Assembly (NCBI RefSeq): GCF_019222765.1
Contig: NZ_CP078145.1
Coordinates: forward strand, 7,192,001-7,256,000
DNA: 64,000 nt
Direction: 5' to 3'
From: Nocardia iowensis
GTDB lineage: Bacteria > Actinomycetota > Actinomycetes > Mycobacteriales > Mycobacteriaceae
Positions 20,246 to 34,543 of this stretch are shown here, one piece after another. The notes beneath the pieces were generated by a model that was not told the origin of the DNA, searched no databases, and was given only the letters and a program-made list of their open reading frames with translations. The translations under genes were made by a program, and so were the position numbers. How positions within the stretch are numbered: the stretch's first letter is position 1; the number at the start of each line of letters is the position of its first letter.

Positions 20246-21571
20246 CTACATCCCGACACATTCGATGATCGGCGCGGGATACACGGCGGGATCGATATTC
20301 GCGCGCCACGGCATGTGCACGGCAGCGCCGGAAAGGTGCGCCAGCTCGGGGACCCAGCGGCGCACGTATTCGCCGTCCGGGTCGTACCGCTTGGCCTGGC
20401 GCAGCGGGTTGAGCACCCGATTCGGCCTGGTATCGGTGCCGGTGCCGGCCACCCACTGCCAGTTGAGTTGATTGTTCGCCAGATCCCCGTCGACCAGCCA
20501 GCGCAGGAAGTGGTCCGCGCCGACGCGCCAGTCCACCCGCAGCGATTTGGCCAGGAAGCTGGCGGTGATCAGCCTGGCCCGCCCCGGCATCCAGCCCTCG
20601 GCGAGCAATTGCCGCATAGCCGCGTCGATGACCGGATATCCGGTGCGACCGTCCCGCCAGGCCGCGACGGCCTGCGGATCGTCGCGCCAGCCGATCGACC
20701 GGGGCCGGTAGTCCGACCACGCGGCGTCCGGCCGGGCTGCGAGCAACTGGTGGTGGAAGTCGCGCCACGCCAGCTGTCTGGCGAAGGCGTGACCGCCCGC
20801 GGTCGACATATCGACCCGATGCACCAGCTCGGCTGGGGACACACAACCGAAGTGCAGATACGGCGACAGCCGGGAGGTGGCGTCGGCGGCGAGGTAGTCG
20901 TTGCGGTCTTCGTAGGCCTCGATCGGCCCGGAAAGCCAGTCCCGCAGCATCTTTCGCCCTGTCGTCTCGCCACCCACGGCAAGCTGCGGCGAGGTCGGGC
21001 CCGCGCGGAGTTGCTCGGCTTCCGGCAGCGGCTCGCTCGCCACCTCCGGCACCGTGAGCCCGCGTGGCTTCCCCAACGGCTTGCGCTGATGCGCCTCCGA
21101 CCACCGCCGGAAATAGGGGGTGAAGATGGCGAAATGGTCCCGGCCGGTGGACGGGACGAGCACTTCCGGATCGGCGGCGGTGATCGACGCGGCATGGGTG
21201 TGCAGCAGACAATCGCGCCGCGCAAGCCGCTCCCGCAGCGCCTGTTCGCGCCTGCGGCTGTATCCACTCACGTCGGCGGCGATGTGCACGCTCTCGGCAT
21301 GCACCTGCGCCGCGATCCGGTCCACTTCCGTGCCGACATCGCCACGCCGCACCACCAGCCGACCCCCGATGGCCCGCAATTCGGCATCGAGCTCCGCCAG
21401 CGCGGCGGCGAGGAAGCGCGCCCGATTCGGCGACGCGAAACGACCGGCCGCGATGGCGTCATCGATGACGAAAAGCGGTACCACCGAAGCACCTTCACGA
21501 TGCGCCGCGGTCAGCACCGGGTTGTCGTGCACCCGCAGATCACGGGTGAATAGGGCGATGGTGACGGTCAT
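20246..21571 (-). CDS. phrB: Deoxyribodipyrimidine photolyase
   Basis: This 441-residue class I photolyase repairs UV-induced pyrimidine dimers with blue light. The N-terminal antenna domain starts TIALFTRDLRVHDNP. The C-terminal FAD domain has 'RLSPYLHFGCVSPAE', 'GYPVIDAAMRQLLAEGWM' and 'DGDLANNQLNWQWVAGTG', the family signatures. Its ATG overlaps the stop of the short lipocalin gene by ATGA, so the two are co-translated from a promoter beyond 21828. That promoter region contains an 11-bp-spaced AACGATGCA element. Confidence 0.95.
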   Translation of the reverse strand: MTVTIALFTRDLRVHDNPVLTAAHREGASVVPLFVIDDAIAAGRFASPNRARFLAAALAELDAELRAIGGRLVVRRGDVGTEVDRIAAQVHAESVHIAADVSGYSRRREQALRERLARRDCLLHTHAASITAADPEVLVPSTGRDHFAIFTPYFRRWSEAHQRKPLGKPRGLTVPEVASEPLPEAEQLRAGPTSPQLAVGGETTGRKMLRDWLSGPIEAYEDRNDYLAADATSRLSPYLHFGCVSPAELVHRVDMSTAGGHAFARQLAWRDFHHQLLAARPDAAWSDYRPRSIGWRDDPQAVAAWRDGRTGYPVIDAAMRQLLAEGWMPGRARLITASFLAKSLRVDWRVGADHFLRWLVDGDLANNQLNWQWVAGTGTDTRPNRVLNPLRQAKRYDPDGEYVRRWVPELAHLSGAAVHMPWRANIDPAVYPAPIIECVGM

Positions 21572-21828
21572 CTGCGCACCTCGCTATTGCCCTGCGCGTC
21601 GAGCGCGTGATTTGCCTGGGTATCGCGAGCACAGACGAGGTCGAAGTACTGCGGCACCGCCGCCAGCTGGTTCCAGGTACCGAAGTGCCGGTTCAGGTCG
21701 AGCGGCGACACCGGCGCCGGTCCGGCGACGGGTGCCGCCTCGGCGCTACCGACGGCCAGGACGGGGCCCGCCGATAACGCCGGGGCAACGAGCAGGCTAA
21801 CGAGATACCGCTTGGTTCGTGCTGTCAC
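21568..21828 (-). CDS. Truncated secreted lipocalin-like protein
   Basis: This is an 86-residue product from the GTG at 21828, which follows GAGGAG; an ATG at 21861 is less likely. Residues 1 to about 32 form a signal peptide ending SAEA-AP. The remainder matches only the first strand region of a bacterial lipocalin (LDLNRHFGTWNQLAAVPQ, then FDLVCARDT). Full lipocalins are roughly twice as long, so the barrel is missing. The reading frame ends on an ATGA shared with the photolyase start. It may be a decayed gene kept for coupling or a working short form. Confidence 0.65.
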   Translation of the reverse strand: MTARTKRYLVSLLVAPALSAGPVLAVGSAEAAPVAGPAPVSPLDLNRHFGTWNQLAAVPQYFDLVCARDTQANHALDAQGNSEVRR

Positions 21829-21871
21829 GCGAACTCCTCGGAAATCGACGACTTCCCCCATACTAGCCAGT

Positions 21872-21893
21872 AACGATGCACAATTGATTCAAG
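21872..21893. promoter_or_regulatory. Candidate LitR/CarH operator (copy 1)
   Basis: Two 11-mers in direct repeat, AACGATGCACA then ATTGATTCAAG, share A--GAT-CA. The site lies between the divergent lipocalin-photolyase pair and the small membrane protein gene, 25 bases before the latter's start. AACGATGCA recurs upstream of two other genes of the same cluster, and CarH proteins bind 11-bp direct repeats. Confidence 0.55.
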
Positions 21894-21917
21894 CGTACAG
21901 ATTCTCAGGAGGACCCG

Positions 21918-22280
21918 GTGAACTTTCCCTGGCTACCCCGGCTCGCGGGCGCACTGACGGCCGGCTACGGCGCGGCGGTCGCGGTGCGACCGGCCGTCAT
22001 GCTCGGACCGTGCGGCTGGTCCGACGATGACCCGGCTCTGCGCGCCGTTGCCAGGATGACCGCCCTGCGTGACGTCGCGTCCGGGCTGGCCATGCTGGTG
22101 GCGCCGACGCCGAAGGCACTGCGGCTGGCGATCGCCGCCCGGGTGCTCGCCGACGCGTCCGATGCCACGGTCCTCGGGATCGCGTTGCGCGGCCGACCCC
22201 AGCGCGGCAAGGCGATCGCGGTCGCGGCAGGCTGGGGCCTGGTGTGCGCCGCGACCGCTGCCACCACCGTGCGGAGCTGA
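21918..22280 (+). CDS. Small integral membrane protein of unknown function
   Basis: This 120-residue protein starts with GTG after CAGGAGGA. It has about three to four hydrophobic stretches (LAGALTAGYGAAVAV, ASGLAMLVAP, AIAVAAGWGLVCAATAA) with short polar loops. It resembles small membrane proteins of the DUF4267 kind, but I cannot name it. It is the first gene in the rightward direction after the AACGATGCA operator and precedes the MerR regulator by 87 bases, so the two may be one transcript. Confidence 0.7.
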   Translation: MNFPWLPRLAGALTAGYGAAVAVRPAVMLGPCGWSDDDPALRAVARMTALRDVASGLAMLVAPTPKALRLAIAARVLADASDATVLGIALRGRPQRGKAIAVAAGWGLVCAATAATTVRS

Positions 22281-22367
22281 TCATGGCCAGGACACCGGAT
22301 ACCCCGCGCGACGGCCAAGCGCCCGGGCACAGGGAATCGGGCGAACCGGAACAGGCAGAATAGGGCG

Positions 22368-23213
22368 ATGCCCGCCGGTTCCGCTCCCGCTCCCGACGCG
22401 GCCGGATACACGGTGCGCGCGGTGGCCGAGCGCCTCGGCATCCCGACGGCGACCCTGCGGAGCTGGAACCGGCGCTACAACATCGGCCCGCCACAGCATC
22501 GACCCGGCAAGCACCGCCTCTACACCGAGACCGATATCGCCCTGCTCGGGCGCATGCTGACACTTATCAAGGAGGGCGCGAGCCCGGCGGGTGCGGCGGC
22601 CGCGGTGCGCGGACCGATTCCGCTGCTCGGCGACCGGTTCCCGTTGCTCGCCGCGGCTTTCGCGCTGGAGACGCGCGCGGTGACCGACTATCTGGAGGCG
22701 CATTTCCGCGCCTACGGCGTGGTGCAAACCTGGGATCGGTTGTGTCGCCCCGCATTCGCCGACATCGTGGCGCGCCAGGGTGCGGGCGAGGGCTGCATCG
22801 ACGTCGAGCACCTGCTGTCGTGGTGCATCACTTCGGTGCTGCATCGCACCAATCCGCCGCCCGACGCACCCGCGGCCACGCCGGTCGTACTGGCCTGCAC
22901 CAGCGGCGAGACGCACGCGCTGCCGCTGGAAGTGCTCCGAGCGGCGCTGGCCGAGTGCGACGTCGACGCACACATGCTCGGCGCGGACGTTCCGACCGGC
23001 GCGTTGACCGACAGCCTGGCCAGGCACGACCGCCCGGCCTCGGTAATGCTGTGGTCGCAGCAGGAATCGACCGCGTTGACCTCGGCGGTGCGCGCCTGCC
23101 TCGAGGCGGGGTCGCGGGTCTTCGTCGGCGGCCCCGGCTGGGATTCGGTGATCCTGCCCGACGCGGCCGGACGTGTGGCAAGTCTCATCGACGCCGTCGA
23201 TCTCCTGAGCTGA
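22368..23213 (+). CDS. MerR-family B12-binding light sensor, CarH/LitR-like
   Basis: This 281-residue regulator has an N-terminal MerR helix-turn-helix (residues about 14-60: YTVRAVAERLGIPTATLRSW, ending HRLYTETDIALL). A helical B12-binding domain and a C-terminal Rossmann-like cobalamin domain follow. The cobalamin signature D-x-H-x2-G is intact (D200, H202, G205) and the EH pair is present (E147, H148). The CarH Trp that lies ten residues before that Glu is Gln137 here. CarH and LitR bind DNA in the dark with adenosylcobalamin and let go when light breaks the Co-C bond. The setting (photolyase, lipid-modification genes, shared 11-bp repeats) supports light control, while the missing Trp questions the usual photochemistry. 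Confidence 0.85.
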   Translation: MPAGSAPAPDAAGYTVRAVAERLGIPTATLRSWNRRYNIGPPQHRPGKHRLYTETDIALLGRMLTLIKEGASPAGAAAAVRGPIPLLGDRFPLLAAAFALETRAVTDYLEAHFRAYGVVQTWDRLCRPAFADIVARQGAGEGCIDVEHLLSWCITSVLHRTNPPPDAPAATPVVLACTSGETHALPLEVLRAALAECDVDAHMLGADVPTGALTDSLARHDRPASVMLWSQQESTALTSAVRACLEAGSRVFVGGPGWDSVILPDAAGRVASLIDAVDLLS

Positions 23214-23330
23214 CCCCCGCTCGAGCGGGCGTTCCGATGGTCGCCTGCGGATCACCGACGCCCCACCGCTGACCAGGCAGGTAGGCCGGTGGACGCCTGC
23301 GGAGCGCAGCAGATATTGCCGGATCGAAGA

Positions 23331-23352
23331 AACGATGCATAATCGAGGCACT
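23331..23352. promoter_or_regulatory. Candidate LitR/CarH operator (copy 2)
   Basis: Direct repeat with 11-bp period: AACGATGCATA then ATCGAGGCACT, sharing A-CGA-GCA. It lies in the 254-base gap upstream of the FAD oxidoreductase, DUF1365 and cyclopropane synthase operon, 115 bases before its start. Its AACGATGCAT is the exact reverse complement of the ATGCATCGTT in copy 3. Confidence 0.6.
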
Positions 23353-23467
23353 GGCCGTCGGCGCGGTTTCCCGGCGACAGCTGTGCCGACCCCGCTCGCC
23401 CGAGCGCGGTGGCAACCCCGGTCGGCCACCATCGGCCACGGGCGCGACGGGCAACGAGGAGGCACAC

Positions 23468-24790
23468 ATGGACCAGCACACCGGGCCGAGCGTGGACGGC
23501 GTCCGACAGGTCGCCGTGATCGGCAGTGGCGTGGCCGGATTGACCGCGGCCTGGGTGCTGTCGAAGTCCGCCGAGGTGACCCTTTACGAAGCCGATCATC
23601 GGCTCGGCGGCCACGCCGACACCCATCGGGTCGCCGCCCAAAATGGTGCGACCGTCGGCGTCGATACCGGATTCATCGTGCACAATGATCGGACTTATCC
23701 GACGCTGCTGCGGTTGTTCGGCGAACTGGGTATCCAGACCCAGGAATCGGACATGAGCATGTCGGTGCGCTGCGACGGCTGCGGCCTGGAATACGCGGGC
23801 GCCCGCGGCCCCGGCGGCTTGTTCGCCACGCCACGCTCGCTGACCCGAGGACGCTATCTGCGCCTGCTCGCCGAGGTGCCGCGATTCCATCGGGTGGCCC
23901 GCGCCGAATTGTCCGATGCGGCCGAAACCGGCCGCACGCTAGCGGAATTCGTCCTCGACAACGGCTTCTCCGACTACTTCGTCACGCACTTCCTCACCCC
24001 GCTCGTCGCGGCCGTGTGGTCGTGCGACCCGGCCACCGCGTTGCAGTACCCGGCCCGGTATCTGTTCACCTTCCTCGACCATCACGGCATGTTGACCGTG
24101 TTCGACTCGCCCACTTGGCGCACTGTCACGGGCGGCTCGGCCACTTACGTCCGCGCCGTCGCCGACCGACTGAACACCGTGCTCGTCGGCACTCCGGTGC
24201 GGGCCGTGCATCGCGTTCCCGACGGCGTCGCGGTACGCGACGACGCGGACGAGGTCAGGATGTTCGACGCGGCGGTGATCGCCACCCATCCGGATCAGGC
24301 GCTGGGCATGCTCGCCGAACCGACCGAAGCGGAGGTCGAAATCCTTTCCGCCATGCCATATTCGGTGAATCACACGGTATTGCACACTGATCCGTCGGTG
24401 CTGCCGAGGGCGCAGCGAGCGCGGGCGTCCTGGAACTACCGGCTGCCATCGTGCACGGCGAAGCTGGATCGTGTACTGGTCAGCTACGACCTGACCCGGC
24501 TGCAGCGGCTGGCGGGTGATCGGCGGTTCCTGGTCACGCTCGGTGACGCGGACCGGGTCGATCCCGACCTGATCCTCGATCGGATGGTCTACCAGCATCC
24601 GCGCTACACCCCGAGTTCAGTGGCCGCTCAGCGCAGGCTCGGTGAAATCGGTTGTGCGCGAGTGGCCTTCGCGGGCGCCTATCACGGCTGGGGTTTCCAC
24701 GAGGACGGCGCGCTGTCCGGGCTGCGTGCCGCGCAGCGCCTCGGCGCCGGCTGGCACAGCACCGCGCTCACGGCAGTGCGTGCCTCGTGA
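23468..24790 (+). CDS. FAD-dependent amine-oxidase-like oxidoreductase
   Basis: This 440-residue flavoprotein has the FAD loop VAVIGSGVAGLTAAW at the N-terminus, then EADHRLGGHADT and a C-terminal FAD-contact segment (VAFAGAYHGWGFHEDGALSG). It belongs to the amine-oxidase-like family that is almost always encoded beside DUF1365 and cyclopropane-fatty-acid synthases. In Rhodobacter such clusters belong to the singlet-oxygen stress response. It probably oxidises or desaturates membrane acyl chains, but the exact reaction is not readable here. GAGGAGGC precedes the ATG, and its stop overlaps the next start (GTGA). Confidence 0.88.
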   Translation: MDQHTGPSVDGVRQVAVIGSGVAGLTAAWVLSKSAEVTLYEADHRLGGHADTHRVAAQNGATVGVDTGFIVHNDRTYPTLLRLFGELGIQTQESDMSMSVRCDGCGLEYAGARGPGGLFATPRSLTRGRYLRLLAEVPRFHRVARAELSDAAETGRTLAEFVLDNGFSDYFVTHFLTPLVAAVWSCDPATALQYPARYLFTFLDHHGMLTVFDSPTWRTVTGGSATYVRAVADRLNTVLVGTPVRAVHRVPDGVAVRDDADEVRMFDAAVIATHPDQALGMLAEPTEAEVEILSAMPYSVNHTVLHTDPSVLPRAQRARASWNYRLPSCTAKLDRVLVSYDLTRLQRLAGDRRFLVTLGDADRVDPDLILDRMVYQHPRYTPSSVAAQRRLGEIGCARVAFAGAYHGWGFHEDGALSGLRAAQRLGAGWHSTALTAVRAS

Positions 24791-25530
24791 ACCGGCCGAG
24801 CACGACCACGACCGCGCAGATCGTCCGTACCCGGATCCGTCATGTGCGCCTCGCCCCGCTGCGCCACGAGTTCGGCTATCGCAGCTATAGCTGGCTGGTC
24901 GACCTCGACGACATGCCACGGCTGCCGCGCTGGCTGCGCCCGCTCGCCGGGTTCCGCGCCGCCGACCATCTCGGCGATCCGCACCGGACCCTGCGCGAGA
25001 ACGTCGACGGCTATCTCGCCGAGCACGGCATCGACCTGCGCGGAGGTCGCGTACTGATGCTCGCCAACGCGCGGGTGTTCGGTTATGTGTTCAATCCACT
25101 CACCCTGTTCTGGTGCCGCGACCGCGCGGGCACGCTGGTCTGCGTCATCGCGGAAGTGCACAACACCTACGGTGAACGGCACTGCTACCTGGTTCGTCCC
25201 GATGAGCACGGGGTGGCGACCACCCCGAAGCGCTTCTACGTCTCCCCGTTCAACGAGGTACGGGGCGAATACCGGATGCGGCTGCCCGAGCCCACCGACC
25301 GGCTGCGGGTATCCATCACCCTCACCGACGACCAGCCGATTTTCGCCGCCTCGATGACCGGCCGTTGCCAATCGGCCACCGTCCGTACCATCCTGCGCGC
25401 GACAGTGGCGGTACCCCTTGCCCCACTTGTGGTCTCGGCGCTCATTCGCAGGCACGGCGTGCATCTCTGGGCGCGCGGCCTGCCACTCGTCCCCCGACCG
25501 GCCCGACACTTCGAGGAGTCTTCGCGGTGA
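24787..25530 (+). CDS. DUF1365-family protein
   Basis: This 247-residue protein starts with a GTG overlapping the FAD oxidoreductase stop. Family marks are 'VRLAPLRHEFGYRSYSWLVDLDD', the 'RVFGYVFNPLTLFWC' core and 'KRFYVSPFNEVRGEYRM'. The function is unproven, but it always travels with the flavoprotein and cyclopropane synthase and is thought to take part in the same fatty-acid modification. The next gene starts inside its stop codon (GTGA), so the three proteins are probably made in fixed ratio. Confidence 0.9.
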   Translation: MNRPSTTTTAQIVRTRIRHVRLAPLRHEFGYRSYSWLVDLDDMPRLPRWLRPLAGFRAADHLGDPHRTLRENVDGYLAEHGIDLRGGRVLMLANARVFGYVFNPLTLFWCRDRAGTLVCVIAEVHNTYGERHCYLVRPDEHGVATTPKRFYVSPFNEVRGEYRMRLPEPTDRLRVSITLTDDQPIFAASMTGRCQSATVRTILRATVAVPLAPLVVSALIRRHGVHLWARGLPLVPRPARHFEESSR

Positions 25531-26795
25531 GCATCCAATCGCAGGTCACGGCACGACCCTCGACCTACTGGCCCGATGTCGAACGGGTGCCCACCGGGAC
25601 CCGCGCCGCGATCGCCGCGGCGGTGGCGGACCGGTTGTTCCGGCACGCCGTGCGCACGCTCCCGATCCGGGTCGAGTACCCGGACGGAACGGTCCTCGGT
25701 CGAGGCGCGCTGGACGCGCCGCGGCTGATCCTGCACCGTCCCGGCGATTTCACCGCACGGCTCGGCGTCGGCGGACTGATCGGCTTCGGCGAGTCCTATA
25801 TGGCGGGCGACTGGTCGGCTCCCGATCCGGCCGCGACCCTAGCCGTGTTCGCCGAGCACATCGACACCCTCGTCCCGGCCCCGCTGCGCGCGTTGCGCCG
25901 ACTATATGTCGCGAAACATCCCGCCGCCGAACGCAACAGTGAATCGAACAGTCGAGGCAATATCGCCAGGCATTACGACCTGTCGAACAATCTCTTCGAA
26001 TTGTTCCTGGACGAGACGCTGACCTATTCCAGCGCGTTGTTCCCGGCCACCGCGCCGCCACCGCGGTGGGCCGACCTCGCCGCCGCCCAACGCGCGAAGA
26101 TCGATCGGATACTCGACCGCGCTGGCGTCGGGCCGGGCACCCGGCTGCTCGAAATCGGCACCGGCTGGGGTGAATTGGCGCTGCGTGCGGCCGCCCGAGG
26201 GGCTTCGGTGCGCTCGGTGACGCTGTCAACGGAGCAGCGCGCGCTCGCCATGGACCGGATCGCCGCGGCAGGCTTGTCCGAACGCGTCACCATCGATCTG
26301 CTCGACTATCGCCGGGTGACAGGCGAATTCGACGCGGTGGTCTCGGTGGAGATGATCGAGGCCGTCGGCTACGAATACCTGGACACCTTCTTCGAAACCA
26401 TCGACCGGGTGCTGGCCCCGGGCGGCCGCGCGGTGATCCAAGCGATCACCATGCCGCACCACCGCATGCTCGCCACCCGCGACACCTACACCTGGGTGCA
26501 GAAATACATCTTCCCCGGCGGGTTCCTGCCCTCCACCCGGCTGCTCACCGACGTGGCGGCGCGCTGTACCGAACTCGTTGTCCGCGAACAGCTGTCGATG
26601 GGCGAGCACTACGCGCACACGCTGCGCCTGTGGCAGCAGCGATTCAACGCCCGCGCCGACCGCGTCGCGGAATTGGGCTTCGACCCGGTCTTCCGGCGGA
26701 TGTGGCGGTTGTATCTGGCGCACGCCGAGGCCGGATTCCGGTGCGGCTACCTCGACGTGTACCAGATCCTGCTCACCCGCGACGCACCCGCCTGA
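25527..26795 (+). CDS. cfa: Cyclopropane-fatty-acyl-phospholipid synthase
   Basis: This 422-residue SAM-dependent enzyme methylates the double bond of membrane acyl chains. An N-terminal lipid-binding domain (GFGESYMAGDW) is followed by the methyltransferase core: 'NIARHYDLSNNLFELFLDETLTYSSA', SAM loop LEIGTGWGELA, 'SVEMIEAVG', and 'YIFPGGFLPS'. It is the third gene of a tightly overlapping operon behind a candidate LitR operator. It could make cyclopropane, methyl-branched or furan-precursor lipids; family members next to DUF1365 are often not simple Cfa enzymes. Confidence 0.9.
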   Translation: MSIQSQVTARPSTYWPDVERVPTGTRAAIAAAVADRLFRHAVRTLPIRVEYPDGTVLGRGALDAPRLILHRPGDFTARLGVGGLIGFGESYMAGDWSAPDPAATLAVFAEHIDTLVPAPLRALRRLYVAKHPAAERNSESNSRGNIARHYDLSNNLFELFLDETLTYSSALFPATAPPPRWADLAAAQRAKIDRILDRAGVGPGTRLLEIGTGWGELALRAAARGASVRSVTLSTEQRALAMDRIAAAGLSERVTIDLLDYRRVTGEFDAVVSVEMIEAVGYEYLDTFFETIDRVLAPGGRAVIQAITMPHHRMLATRDTYTWVQKYIFPGGFLPSTRLLTDVAARCTELVVREQLSMGEHYAHTLRLWQQRFNARADRVAELGFDPVFRRMWRLYLAHAEAGFRCGYLDVYQILLTRDAPA

Positions 26796-26804
26796 CCCGG
26801 CGGT

Positions 26805-28154
26805 TCAGTGTCGGGCGCGGCCGAGCAGATGTCGTAGCGCCGCCGCGAGATCCGGTGTGCGGAACCGATGTCCGGCCTTGCCGAGGACGGCGGGCACGAC
26901 CCGCTGGCTCGCGGCGGCGAGTTCGCGGGCGCCCTGCTCGCCGAGCAGCAGCGCCGGGCCGAACTCGGGCACCGGGAGCAATGCGGGCCTGCGCAGCACA
27001 CCGGCCAGGATGTTGGTGTATTCGCTGTTGCGAACAGGTTGTGGGGCAACGGCATTCACCGGGCCGGACAGCGTGCTGTCCCATAGCGCGCGATAATAGA
27101 TGTCCACCAGATCGTCGATCCCGATCCAGGACAACCACTGTTCGCCGTCCCCGATCCGGCCACCGAGACCGGTCGCGAACAACGGCCGCAGCAGTCGCAG
27201 GGTGCCGCCGCGCGGCGATTGCACGATCCCGGTCCGCACCGTGACGACACGTACTCCACCATCGGCGGCGGCGCCGGTGGCCGCCTCCCATGCCTCGACC
27301 ACGTCAGCCAGGAAACCGTCGCCACGCGAAGCGTCTTCAGACAACCGCTCGTCGCCGCGGTCGTAGCCGTAGTAGCCGATGGCAGACGCGCTGACGAAGC
27401 TCGGCACGCCTGCGCGGGCGGCCAGTGCGGCGAGCCGCTCGGTCGGTCCGATGCGGCTGTCGACGACGGCCTGCTTGTGTTCGTCGGTGAATCGGCCCGC
27501 GATGGACGCACCCGCGAGGTGGACCACCGCGTCTACGCCGTCGAGCAGGTCGGGTGCGGGATCGTCCGGGTTCCATTGCCTTTCGCCCGGTTGCGGTGCA
27601 TGCCGGACCAGGCGGAGCACGGTGTGGCCGCCGGTCGTCAGGAACGCGGACAACGCCGAGCCGACCAGCCCCGATGCGCCGGTCACCGCGATCGTCTTGG
27701 CCGCGAAGCCTGCTCGCGTCGCGTCGGCGTGGGCGGCCAGGTCGTCGGCGAGCTGCCGATACCGATAGTCGAACATCGGGCGCAGGGCGAAGGCGGGCAC
27801 CCGTGACTCGACGCGGTCCACCACCCTGGTGTGCGTATCGTCGACGACCTCGAAGTCGTGCGTGTGCCGCCAGCGCAGCAGCAGGCCCGCGGGCAGCGAG
27901 CCGACACCGTCGACGGCGATCCGGTCGACGAACCGCTGCGGCGGTTCGTAGCCATCGGGATCGTGTCTGGCCACCCAGCGCAACCCGCCCGGCAACCCGA
28001 GCACGGCCCGCCCATCGGCCAGCGAAGCGGCCTCGGCGAGCACCGACACCGGCTGCCACGGCGGCGCGAGCCGCGCGAACGCGCCTGGTCGGGCATGCCA
28101 CTCGAAGACCTCGGACCGGGGTGCCGCGACGACGCTCGAACACTCGATGCCCAT
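26805..28154 (-). CDS. TIGR01777 epimerase with N-terminal SRPBCC domain
   Basis: This 449-residue two-domain protein starts with a polyketide-cyclase-like SRPBCC fold (residues about 1-145, 'SSVVAAPRSEVFEWHARPGAFARLAPPW'). It continues with an NAD(P)-binding SDR of the TIGR01777/YfcH group (TGASGLVGSALS, 'VHLAGASIAGRF', 'SASAIGYYG', 'SWIGIDDLVDIYYRA'). The enzyme activity is unknown. This family is a regular member of photolyase and LitR clusters. It converges on the cyclopropane synthase gene, nine bases apart, and its start faces the SDR gene across a candidate LitR operator. Confidence 0.88.
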   Translation of the reverse strand: MGIECSSVVAAPRSEVFEWHARPGAFARLAPPWQPVSVLAEAASLADGRAVLGLPGGLRWVARHDPDGYEPPQRFVDRIAVDGVGSLPAGLLLRWRHTHDFEVVDDTHTRVVDRVESRVPAFALRPMFDYRYRQLADDLAAHADATRAGFAAKTIAVTGASGLVGSALSAFLTTGGHTVLRLVRHAPQPGERQWNPDDPAPDLLDGVDAVVHLAGASIAGRFTDEHKQAVVDSRIGPTERLAALAARAGVPSFVSASAIGYYGYDRGDERLSEDASRGDGFLADVVEAWEAATGAAADGGVRVVTVRTGIVQSPRGGTLRLLRPLFATGLGGRIGDGEQWLSWIGIDDLVDIYYRALWDSTLSGPVNAVAPQPVRNSEYTNILAGVLRRPALLPVPEFGPALLLGEQGARELAAASQRVVPAVLGKAGHRFRTPDLAAALRHLLGRARH

Positions 28155-28182
28155 GCTTCGACTCTAGCGAGGCGCCGGAACA

Positions 28183-28204
28183 ATGCAACGTTCATGCATC
28201 GTTA
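28183..28204. promoter_or_regulatory. Candidate LitR/CarH operator (copy 3)
   Basis: On the + strand ATGCAACGTTC and ATGCATCGTTA lie in direct repeat with an 11-bp period, differing at only two positions. It is the best conserved of the three copies. It is central in the 86-base divergent promoter, 29 bases from the TIGR01777 start and 37 bases from the SDR start, so one bound regulator could control both. Confidence 0.65.
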
Positions 28205-28240: not shown

Positions 28241-29218
28241 ATGACCGATGCGTCCGGTGCCCCCGCTTTCCTCGACACCCTGCTCGACCGGACGATCGCT
28301 CCCGGTTACAGCCGCCTCGGCTTCCGGCTGCGCAGACGCGGCTGGCCCGCGGACGACCCGCACCCCGACGCCATGCGCGGCCGCACGGCGCTGGTGACCG
28401 GATCGAATTCCGGCATCGGCAAGGCCATCGCGGCGGAATTGGCCGGACTCGGCGGCTCGGTGGTGCTCGCGGTCCGCGACCGCGGCCGTGGCGAGCAGGC
28501 AGCCGAGGAAATCATGGCCGCCGACCCGACGGCCGATGTCTCGGTGACCGTGTGCGACGTGTCCGATCCGCGATCCGTGGCCGACTGCGCGAACGAGCTC
28601 ACCGCCCGGCTGTCGCGACTGGATGTGCTGATCCACAACGCGGGCGTGTTGCCGCCCCGGCGCATCGAGACCGCCGAGGGACACGAGACCACACTGGCCA
28701 CCCACGTACTCGGTCCGCTGCTGCTCACCGATCGACTCGTGCCGCTGCTCGACGCGGCCGACGGGTCCCGGGTGATCCTCATGTCCTCGGGCGGGATGTA
28801 CACCCAGCGCCTCGCCGTCGACGACCCCGAATTCCGGCTCGGTCGGTACTCCGGCACCACCGCGTACGCCCGCACCAAGCGGATGCAGGTGGCACTGACC
28901 CCCTTGCTGGCCGAGCACTATGCACCCCAGCGCATTTCGGTGCACTGCATGCATCCGGGCTGGGCGGACACCCCCGGCGTCACCGCGTCGCTGCCCGCCT
29001 TCCATCGACTCACCGGTCCGCTGCTGCGCAGTCCCGCCGAGGGCGCGGACACGGCGGTCTGGCTCGCCGCGACCTCGGCCACGCTGCCGTCCGGCCGGTT
29101 CTGGCACGACCGGCGGGTGCGGCCGGAGCACTACCTGCGGCGGACGCGCTACACCGCCGACGAGGCCTGGCGGCTCTGGCAGTTCTGCCGGGAAGCCGCT
29201 GGTATCGGCGTCGGATAA
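28241..29218 (+). CDS. Short-chain dehydrogenase/reductase
   Basis: This 325-residue SDR has the nucleotide loop TGSNSGIGKA, the NAG motif (IHNAGVLPP) and catalytic serine with YARTK (about residue 205). An N-terminal extension of about 45 residues precedes the Rossmann fold. It resembles retinol-dehydrogenase-like SDRs, and many such proteins sit next to photolyase and NTF2-like genes in light-induced clusters. The substrate is probably lipophilic, but this is inferred. It is driven from the divergent promoter carrying operator copy 3. Confidence 0.87.
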   Translation: MTDASGAPAFLDTLLDRTIAPGYSRLGFRLRRRGWPADDPHPDAMRGRTALVTGSNSGIGKAIAAELAGLGGSVVLAVRDRGRGEQAAEEIMAADPTADVSVTVCDVSDPRSVADCANELTARLSRLDVLIHNAGVLPPRRIETAEGHETTLATHVLGPLLLTDRLVPLLDAADGSRVILMSSGGMYTQRLAVDDPEFRLGRYSGTTAYARTKRMQVALTPLLAEHYAPQRISVHCMHPGWADTPGVTASLPAFHRLTGPLLRSPAEGADTAVWLAATSATLPSGRFWHDRRVRPEHYLRRTRYTADEAWRLWQFCREAAGIGVG

Positions 29219-33739: not shown

Positions 33740-34543
33740 ATGCGTAGTGATCACACCCGCCTCGTTGTCACGGTCGTCGCGTGTTCCGGCCTGGTCCTGT
33801 CCGGAGTCGGTATCGCGTCCGCGCAAGTTGCCACCGGCACGGTGCCGGATGGGCAGCCGGTAGCCGTCCAAACGCCCACCCAGCAGGCGCTGATCGAACG
33901 GGCCCGGCAGCGCTCGGCGAGCGCGCGCGACCGTGCCGAATCGGTGCGGCCCGGCGATTCGGTGCAGCCCGGCGATTCGGTGCGGCCCGGCGATTCGGTG
34001 CGGCCCGGCGATTCGGTGCGGCCCGGCGATTCGGTGCGGCCCGGCGATTCAGTGCAACCCGGCGATTCAGTGCAACCCAGCGATTCAGTGCAACCCAGCG
34101 ATTCAGTGCAACCCAGCGATTCAGTGCAACCCAGCGATTCAGTGCAACCCAGCGATTCGGTGCAACCCAGCGATAACGCGTGCCCGGCCGCGCCAGAAAA
34201 GGCGAAGCAGAGGCCGGCCCAGCGCGACACCATTCGCACCGGCCTCGACAGCGCGGCAAAGGCCGCCGAAGCCGCGGCGAATACCGCGGCCGCCGCCCGT
34301 GCCGCGGCCGACGCCGCACGTGCCGCGCTGGCGGCGGTCCTCGCCACCGAAGAGGCCGCTGACGGCTTCCTCAGCATTCTCGAAGCCGAGATGGCCGCCC
34401 GTGCGGCCGAGGAGGCGGCCGCCGCTCCCGACGATGTCGAGCTCGCCAATGCCGCCGCCGCGGCGGAGAACAGGGCCGCCAGGGCGACTGCCCGAATGAC
34501 CAAGGCGCCGATCCACCCGATCCACCCGATCCGCAAGCCGTGA
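33740..34543 (+). CDS. Secreted repeat protein with 6-residue repeats and Ala-rich helix
   Basis: This is a 267-residue protein with a signal peptide (to about residue 28, IASA-QV). A stretch of 13 copies of S-V-R/Q-P-G/S-D follows at residues 68-145. Next come an alanine-rich, probably coiled-coil helix (residues about 165-250) and a basic end (IHPIHPIRKP). The hexapeptide block should be extended and flexible, suited to crossing the cell wall or binding a surface. I know no function. The gene ends just before a strong terminator. Confidence 0.75.
   Translation: MRSDHTRLVVTVVACSGLVLSGVGIASAQVATGTVPDGQPVAVQTPTQQALIERARQRSASARDRAESVRPGDSVQPGDSVRPGDSVRPGDSVRPGDSVRPGDSVQPGDSVQPSDSVQPSDSVQPSDSVQPSDSVQPSDSVQPSDNACPAAPEKAKQRPAQRDTIRTGLDSAAKAAEAAANTAAAARAAADAARAALAAVLATEEAADGFLSILEAEMAARAAEEAAAAPDDVELANAAAAAENRAARATARMTKAPIHPIHPIRKP
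33941..34174 (+). repeat. Minisatellite: 13 tandem 18-bp units
   Basis: There are thirteen 18-bp units with no spacer, in frame as six codons. Units 1-6 are mostly of the GTGCGGCCCGGCGAT kind and units 7-13 of the GTGCAACCCAGCGAT kind. Two separate local expansions are therefore visible. Copy number probably varies between strains. Confidence 0.95.

Follow-up and report, generated by a model that had tools for sequence, protein, structure and literature searches.

Paired 11-bp repeats as candidate operators of a Trp-less LitR/CarH-family regulator in Nocardia iowensis

A tandem element before the genes of a photoprotection-type cluster

Does a short paired repeat that precedes several genes of one cluster mark the operators of the LitR/CarH-family regulator encoded in the same cluster? 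This question is raised by a 64,000-nucleotide stretch of Nocardia iowensis DNA (contig NZ_CP078145.1, positions 7,192,001 to 7,256,000; hereafter the window, whose own numbering is used below). We consider it probable, at roughly 0.82, that the three copies of the repeat are operators at which the regulator, LitR, represses three promoter regions, and that repression is released by a photo-oxidative or light-linked signal. The elements and the regulator gene are as follows.

21872..21891, + strand: candidate operator 1, AACGATGCA-CA-ATTGATTCA, between the divergent lipocalin-phr and DUF4267-litR genes
23331..23350, + strand: candidate operator 2, AACGATGCA-TA-ATCGAGGCA, upstream of the flavoprotein/DUF1365/Cfa operon
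28184..28203, - strand: candidate operator 3, AACGATGCA-TG-AACGTTGCA, between the divergent TIGR01777 and short-chain dehydrogenase (SDR) genes
22368..23213, + strand: litR, a regulator with a MerR-type helix-turn-helix (HTH) and a cobalamin-binding fold

Each element spans 20 bp and contains two 9-bp units that begin 11 bp from one another, with the consensus A-A/T-C/T-G-A-T-G/T-C-A, 2 bp, and repeat. The first unit is in every case an exact AACGATGCA (21872-21880 and 23331-23339 on the + strand, 28195-28203 on the - strand), and the second units agree with it at 6/9, 7/9, and 8/9 positions in operators 1, 2, and 3, respectively. The initial annotation had described three sites with a second half repeat at exactly 11 bp and no other copy in the window. 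A pattern search confirmed both points, as no further exact AACGATGCA was found in the 64 kb; the third site, placed at 28183, is real but its low edge lies one base higher.

In the source genome of 8,948,074 bases, AACGATGCA occurs 15 times (6 + 9), compared with 8 times for a backward-read control. Three of the 15 copies are inside one 6.3-kb stretch (Poisson P about 2e-7), and the remaining 12 have a second unit at +11 that matches at 5/9 positions at most. The initial annotation had suggested a genome-wide motif scan, and this confined the paired element to the window: the 20-mer AACGATGCANNAWYGATKCA with 0-1 mismatches was found genome-wide only at the three sites, where about 0.014 matches are expected from composition. 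There was one place with two mismatches (contig position 2841461; about 0.4 expected) and there were six with three, one of them overlapping site 3. With up to three mismatches allowed, the genome has 10 places versus 6 in the control, which indicates that the weaker matches are background. The paired motif in the window is far beyond chance.

Conservation of the element was examined in 98 genomes taken as Nocardia, 87 of which have a LitR match, and in 60 of the 87 the analysis took in as much as 20 kb of DNA surrounding the best litR match. Two units 11 bp apart and matching at 15/18 positions or more were found 122 times in the 60 loci, compared with 0 matches for the reversed sequence and 0, 1, 1, 0, and 0 for five block shuffles. 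Of 304 units in these loci matching at 8/9 or better, 113 were followed by a second unit of at least 6/9 at spacing 11; no other spacing between 9 and 25 was seen more than 6 times. An inverted-repeat site of MerR type was also considered and dropped. Inverted second units peaked at +16 (41) and +18 (10), with fewer elsewhere, and the +16 position overlaps the self-complementary TGCA of unit 2; by a rough estimate, the composition of the flanks explains the peak.

A position weight matrix (PWM) was built from the 122 sites of the relatives, with the window excluded. As these sites had been picked by consensus match, the information within the 18 counted positions is inflated. The matrix scored operators 1, 3, and 2 at 35.8, 33.0, and 32.8, and the next place in the window at 9.7. 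A matrix built from distant relatives only (L070-L107, 65 sites) again ranked the window sites first to third (34.4 for operator 1, then 30.2 and 29.5), with the next place at 10.5. In addition, a strict pattern, AWYGATKCANNAWYGATKCA, had 97 matches in 65 of the 98 genomes, whereas its backward-read control had none.

The sites in relatives are placed at the same genes as in the window, which agrees with the initial annotation in placing them upstream of cluster genes. Counting sites with a PWM score of at least 20 within 300 nt upstream of a gene in the 60 loci, we found them at the lipocalin gene in 47/47 relatives, TIGR01777 in 31/42, the flavoprotein gene in 11/15, SDR in 12/17, DUF4267 in 8/12, and litR in 33/59. 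The sites before the NTF2-like gene (11/22) are the TIGR01777 operator in loci that have no intervening SDR, and photolyase has a site in 9/45, the lipocalin gene usually intervening. Almost no sites were seen at genes internal to the operon or outside the cluster (DUF1365 0/21, cfa 1/22, fatty-acid hydroxylase 0/18). Gene order around litR varies greatly among the 60 loci, and rearranged clusters (e.g., L081, L083, L084, and L096) keep sites at the same genes.

The element is kept in related species, the second check proposed at the outset, across Nocardia and into Mycobacterium loci. In other genera of the family, a site scoring 20 or more was present in 16/17 LitR loci from 15 genomes (L165 has none), and among loci named as Mycobacteriaceae in 4/5 (L283, L285, L290, and L291, with scores of 23-37; L287 reached only 14.1). 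The strict unit pattern had no match in 20 distant actinomycete loci, and its control had none there either. Weak tandem repeats ending in TCA, with scores of 8-15, were seen near some actinomycete LitR homologues that bear the Trp discussed below (L308 1432, L317 1410, L322 2358), and these perhaps represent an older form of the operator.

Chance, or the shared ancestry of neighbouring intergenic DNA, has a negligible probability as the source of this pattern. The nearest relatives are alike over long stretches of the cluster, but the controls were empty in all 98 genomes, only weak preferences were seen outside the 20-bp element in the 38 bp examined, and beyond the cluster the element recurs at genes of crtE-like, crtI-like, and glycosyltransferase type.

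Association with LitR and position at promoters

Comparison of genomes with and without LitR links the element to the regulator. The strict motif was present in 64/87 genomes with LitR and in 1/11 genomes without it, the latter lacking a match even at E 1e-6 (Fisher 5.5e-5, uncorrected for relatedness). Three LitR-less genomes (G022, G064, and G074) retain close TIGR01777 and photolyase genes. In G022 and G064 there was no site near either gene, and G064 has an apparent decayed remnant (L219 1452-1471) 49 nt before TIGR01777, which is the median position of the site in loci with LitR. In two further genomes, the LitR match is in two pieces (G057:C142:347143-348060) or has an internal stop (G147:C1:5157816-5158646).

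It is improbable that the sites are bound by a different, linked regulator, for example another LitR paralogue or a CrtR of the MarR type. Many relatives have two LitR paralogues with sites near both kinds, and PMC6739363 mentions CrtR homologues in Mycobacterium and Nocardia. The motif is, on the other hand, associated with LitR at the level of whole genomes, and the source genome has a single full-length LitR, its two further matches covering only the MerR domain at 34% identity.

Even less probable is that the element, instead of being a repressor operator, serves as the promoter of an alternative (extracytoplasmic function, ECF) sigma factor. Its fixed sequence near gene starts would fit a promoter, and in plasmids of Tsukamurella and Streptomyces the lipid operon adjoins genes for ECF SigK and an anti-sigma factor (L324 5303-12060; L325 4917-9976), L324 carrying TIGR01777 and lipocalin genes as well. 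However, the element is found in both orientations relative to genes and at varying distances, its units stand in tandem with an 11-bp period, separate TAnnnT elements lie next to it, and it is missing where LitR is missing (G022 and G064). The SigK-linked loci are also without it, and no site was found in three plasmid stretches that carry the lipid operon but no annotated LitR (best score 9.3).

The relation of the element to the separate promoter-like sequences was compared at the lipocalin, TIGR01777, and flavoprotein genes.

21860..21865, - strand: proposed -10 element TAGTAT of the lipocalin-phr promoter, 6 bp from operator 1
28161..28166, - strand: proposed -10 element TAGAGT of TIGR01777, with a -35-like TTGCAT (28183-28188) that overlaps operator 3
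23316..23343, + strand: possible flavoprotein promoter, a weak candidate found by eye, TTGCCG (23316-23321), 16 bp, CATAAT (23338-23343)

In the relatives, a TAnnnT on the gene strand follows the operator by 4-10 bp at 44/47 lipocalin and 9/9 photolyase promoters; at TIGR01777 the distance is 15-19 bp (30/31 promoters). A control stretch 80 bp upstream had 1, 1, and 0 such matches at these genes. This fixed range means that the operator covers the spacer/-35 zone in one class of promoter and the -35 in the other, and at the flavoprotein gene the possible -10 would fall inside operator 2. The promoters are best read as sigma-70-type, and overlap of this kind would suit a repressor operator. MerR-type activators need fixed placing. 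The varied overlap seen here suits a repressor better.

We hypothesize that LitR occupies the two tandem repeats in head-to-tail arrangement, either as a dimer or through two subunits of a larger oligomer, and represses by covering promoter DNA. The targets would be lipocalin-phr and DUF4267-litR (the latter as autoregulation), the ufaD-ufaO-ufaM-like operon, and the divergent TIGR01777/SDR pair. A photo-oxidative or light-linked signal would then release LitR, and a programme protecting membrane and DNA would be expressed. Overall, the candidate LitR/CarH regulon with an 11-bp tandem operator, which the initial annotation had put forward, is supported by the conservation of the sites, their retention in rearranged clusters, their absence from most LitR-less genomes, and the single LitR. 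We have high confidence that the regulon is real, we consider repression by LitR likely, and a light response is plausible.

Several observations weigh against this interpretation. The strict motif is absent from 23/87 genomes with LitR, TIGR01777 is without a scoring site in 11/42 loci with LitR, litR has no site within 300 nt in 26/59 loci, and in 3/17 loci of other genera the only site is more than 5 kb from litR. Conversely, G055 (a draft of 1,340 contigs) has one strict site without LitR, and G074, which has no detectable LitR, keeps a site at TIGR01777 (30.4) and has none at photolyase. Either G074 contradicts the link to LitR, or its litR gene falls outside what a draft assembly of 240 contigs covers. 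At the flavoprotein gene, the downstream TAnnnT was found in 3/11 cases only and the promoter is not confidently placed. PMC6739363 describes members of the LitR family as acting negatively, but Streptomyces coelicolor LitR is reported to promote litS transcription on illumination (PMC12705666), so the sign of regulation here could be positive. The unit also departs from the known CarH repeat at 2/5 fixed positions, and LitR itself departs from CarH at a residue required in the known vitamin-B12 light sensors; both differences are described in the next section.

LitR as a Trp-less member of the family

LitR has the full-length architecture of the LitR/CarH superfamily, a MerR HTH followed by a four-helix bundle and a Rossmann cobalamin-binding domain (CBD). 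Profile searches gave 2.7e-14 for Pfam MerR_1, 1.3e-4 (below cut-off) for B12-binding, and 8.1e-19 for NCBIfam CarH, the last at 67.9 bits where the cut-off is 400; comparison with CarH by sequence gave 5.4e-14. The structure model (pLDDT, the predicted local distance difference test, 87.9) retrieved the CarH fold in a fold search.

An alignment of 118 sequences (80 orthologues and 38 paralogues, some strains or species appearing twice) revealed which of the cobalamin-associated residues are kept. The EH of the Wx9EH motif (E147-H148) is invariant in 118/118, as are the E and H of the lower axial ligand motif D/ExHxxG/P (E181-T-H183-A-L-P186), whose last position is P in 106, G in 1, and A in 11; GxxxP is invariant in 80/80 orthologues. 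The Trp of Wx9EH is Gln (residue 137) in 80/80 orthologues and 35/38 paralogues, whereas 17/20 other actinomycete homologues keep Trp (these 20 are the ones outside the family among 30 loci returned and are not a random sample). In the 80 orthologues, V or I takes the place of the G of GxxW. The recognition helix reads RSWNRRY instead of RxWERRY, with N in 75 and T in 5 of the 80 orthologues at the E position. Searches of titles and abstract openings in the open-access literature found no description of a Nocardia LitR operator or of the Gln variant.

Canonical class I LitR/CarH proteins are dark repressors that bind adenosylcobalamin (AdoCbl) and are released by its photolysis, a mechanism that differs from the reading preferred here in the sensing step only. 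The CarH fold, the invariant EH, ExH, and GxxxP residues, and the targets (photolyase and, in relatives, carotenoid-type genes) would all fit it. We consider it unlikely nonetheless, given the Gln that has replaced Trp in every orthologue examined and the finding that the Trp-less CarA of Myxococcus, which keeps EH and the B12 motif, works without AdoCbl (PMC9304148). Nocardia LitR has the same combination of retained B12 motif and EH with lost Trp. It thus appears to be a Trp-less (Gln-x9-Glu-His) variant whose sensing may not be classical AdoCbl photolysis. The AdoCbl/light mechanism implied by the initial annotation is not supported, as the Trp is lost and the repeat is without the TnnACA core while the fold and cobalt-ligand His are present, and AdoCbl as the sensor is doubtful.

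Comparison with CarH of Thermus thermophilus and Bacillus megaterium shows agreement in domain order, CBD fold, EH, and lower-ligand His, and in having a tandem 11-bp direct-repeat operator that overlaps promoter elements (PMC8156234, PMC9304148). The CarH repeat is nAnnTnnACAn (PMC8156234); the unit here, nAACGATGCAn, agrees with it at A2, C9, and A10, and has G in place of T5 and A8. In contrast to CarH, there are two repeats rather than three or four, the core is GATGCA rather than TnnACA, Gln and RSWNRRY replace Trp and RxWERRY, and the targets in the source genome are repair and lipid genes with no site found at a carotenoid-type gene there. Myxococcus xanthus CarA sits in tandem with CarH and uses the antirepressor CarS, whereas the source genome here encodes a single protein of the LitR kind.

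Whether these features define a distinct Nocardia/Mycobacteriales class of LitR we regard as evenly balanced. Such a class would have a fixed Gln for the Ado-contacting Trp, an 11-bp tandem operator with a changed core, and a signal other than AdoCbl photolysis (another cobalamin state, a different chromophore, or a protein partner), and it would control photoprotection through photolyase, furan-lipid, and, in relatives, carotenoid genes. In either case, LitR is a natural example in which the CarH fold and an 11-bp-repeat operator persist while the AdoCbl-sensing Trp, thought to be essential, is an invariant Gln. The variant lets one ask directly what Trp-less regulators with the B12 fold sense.

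Genes of the predicted regulon

The element supplies an exact candidate operator and a testable regulon for a regulator that is widespread in Nocardia (a match in 87/98 genomes). The genes of the cluster, other than litR, are listed below with their profile matches.

20246..21571, - strand: DNA photolyase (phr); Pfam FAD_binding_7 1.3e-64, DNA_photolyase 9.7e-41
21568..21828, - strand: truncated lipocalin of 86 aa; Lipocalin_2 2.8e-4, below cut-off, first 42 of 146 positions
21918..22280, + strand: DUF4267-like small protein; weak Pfam DUF4267 match, 8.9e-4, below cut-off
23468..24790, + strand: FAD-dependent amine-oxidase-type protein, ufaD-like; Amino_oxidase 2.4e-29
24787..25530, + strand: DUF1365 protein, ufaO-like; DUF1365 1.3e-70
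25527..26795, + strand: cyclopropane-synthase-family methyltransferase, ufaM-like; CMAS 1.1e-83
26805..28154, - strand: TIGR01777 family oxidoreductase; TIGR01777 4.3e-84, above cut-off
28241..29218, + strand: SDR; adh_short 2.4e-28

Based on the positions of the sites, the best reading is that the targets are photolyase, the ufaD-ufaO-ufaM-like lipid operon, and TIGR01777/SDR. The litR gene is probably a target itself. The DUF4267-like gene is probably co-transcribed with litR (87-nt gap). The lipocalin stop overlaps the photolyase start (ATGA). Lipocalin frames in relatives are at least 197 aa long, and the 86-aa copy in the window still has the operator and the start-stop overlap with photolyase.

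The wider regulon was sampled in 27 loci chosen because they bear sites, and the proteins beside 33 sites were examined. One family comprised 15 distinct proteins, drawn from 15 loci (16 entries, with one protein present twice). Its scanned member is a polyprenyl synthetase (PF00348, 3.2e-43) that reached no NCBIfam cut-off, and by our own reading the family is CrtE-like. Two other proteins form a crtI-like family whose scanned member belongs to the phytoene desaturases (TIGR02734, above cut-off). These families indicate that the element in relatives also stands before genes of carotenoid type, which are the classical targets of LitR/CarH. One member each was scanned of a glycosyltransferase family (four members), the lipocalins (two), and a fasciclin-domain family (three), and the rest were small unscanned families, single proteins, or spurious frames. 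In the source genome itself there are five crtE-like matches, the best with 42% identity, and the 10 places with up to three mismatches all lie away from them.

The Amino_oxidase, DUF1365, and CMAS genes are one run of overlapping genes that brings together, at the level of domains, the kinds of protein found in the UfaM/UfaD/UfaO furan fatty acid pathway of Rhodobacter sphaeroides: an FAD desaturase-like protein, a DUF1365 protein, and a SAM (S-adenosylmethionine) methylase (PMC7380195). The Nocardia operon is Ufa-like in this respect and may have a furan-lipid activity. A clade of relatives (L048, L049, L051, L052, L053, and L056) has no flavoprotein match and a DUF1365 match that starts close to cfa, with the upstream operator retained, an apparent loss of the ufaD-like gene and most of the ufaO-like gene.

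The predicted regulon also resembles that of the class II LitR proteins PplR1 and PmlR2 of Pseudomonas, as the light-inducible set of P. putida includes photolyase and ufaM, and PmlR2 acts as a repressor (PMC9758184). Those regulators differ from Nocardia LitR in their operator (TGTACA-N12-TGTACA) and in keeping only the four-helix bundle of the CBD, where Nocardia LitR has both halves, and the signal of PmlR2 comes from a LOV protein. In Rhodobacter sphaeroides, loss of ChrR raises the product of the Ufa pathway (PMC7380195). Together, these arrangements suggest that a single lipid-protection module has come under different regulators in different bacteria, with LitR here, SigK as a neighbour in the Tsukamurella and Streptomyces plasmids, and ChrR in Rhodobacter.

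Elsewhere in the window, an open reading frame at 33740-34543 was observed to have many copies of PGDSV/PSDSV-type repeats.

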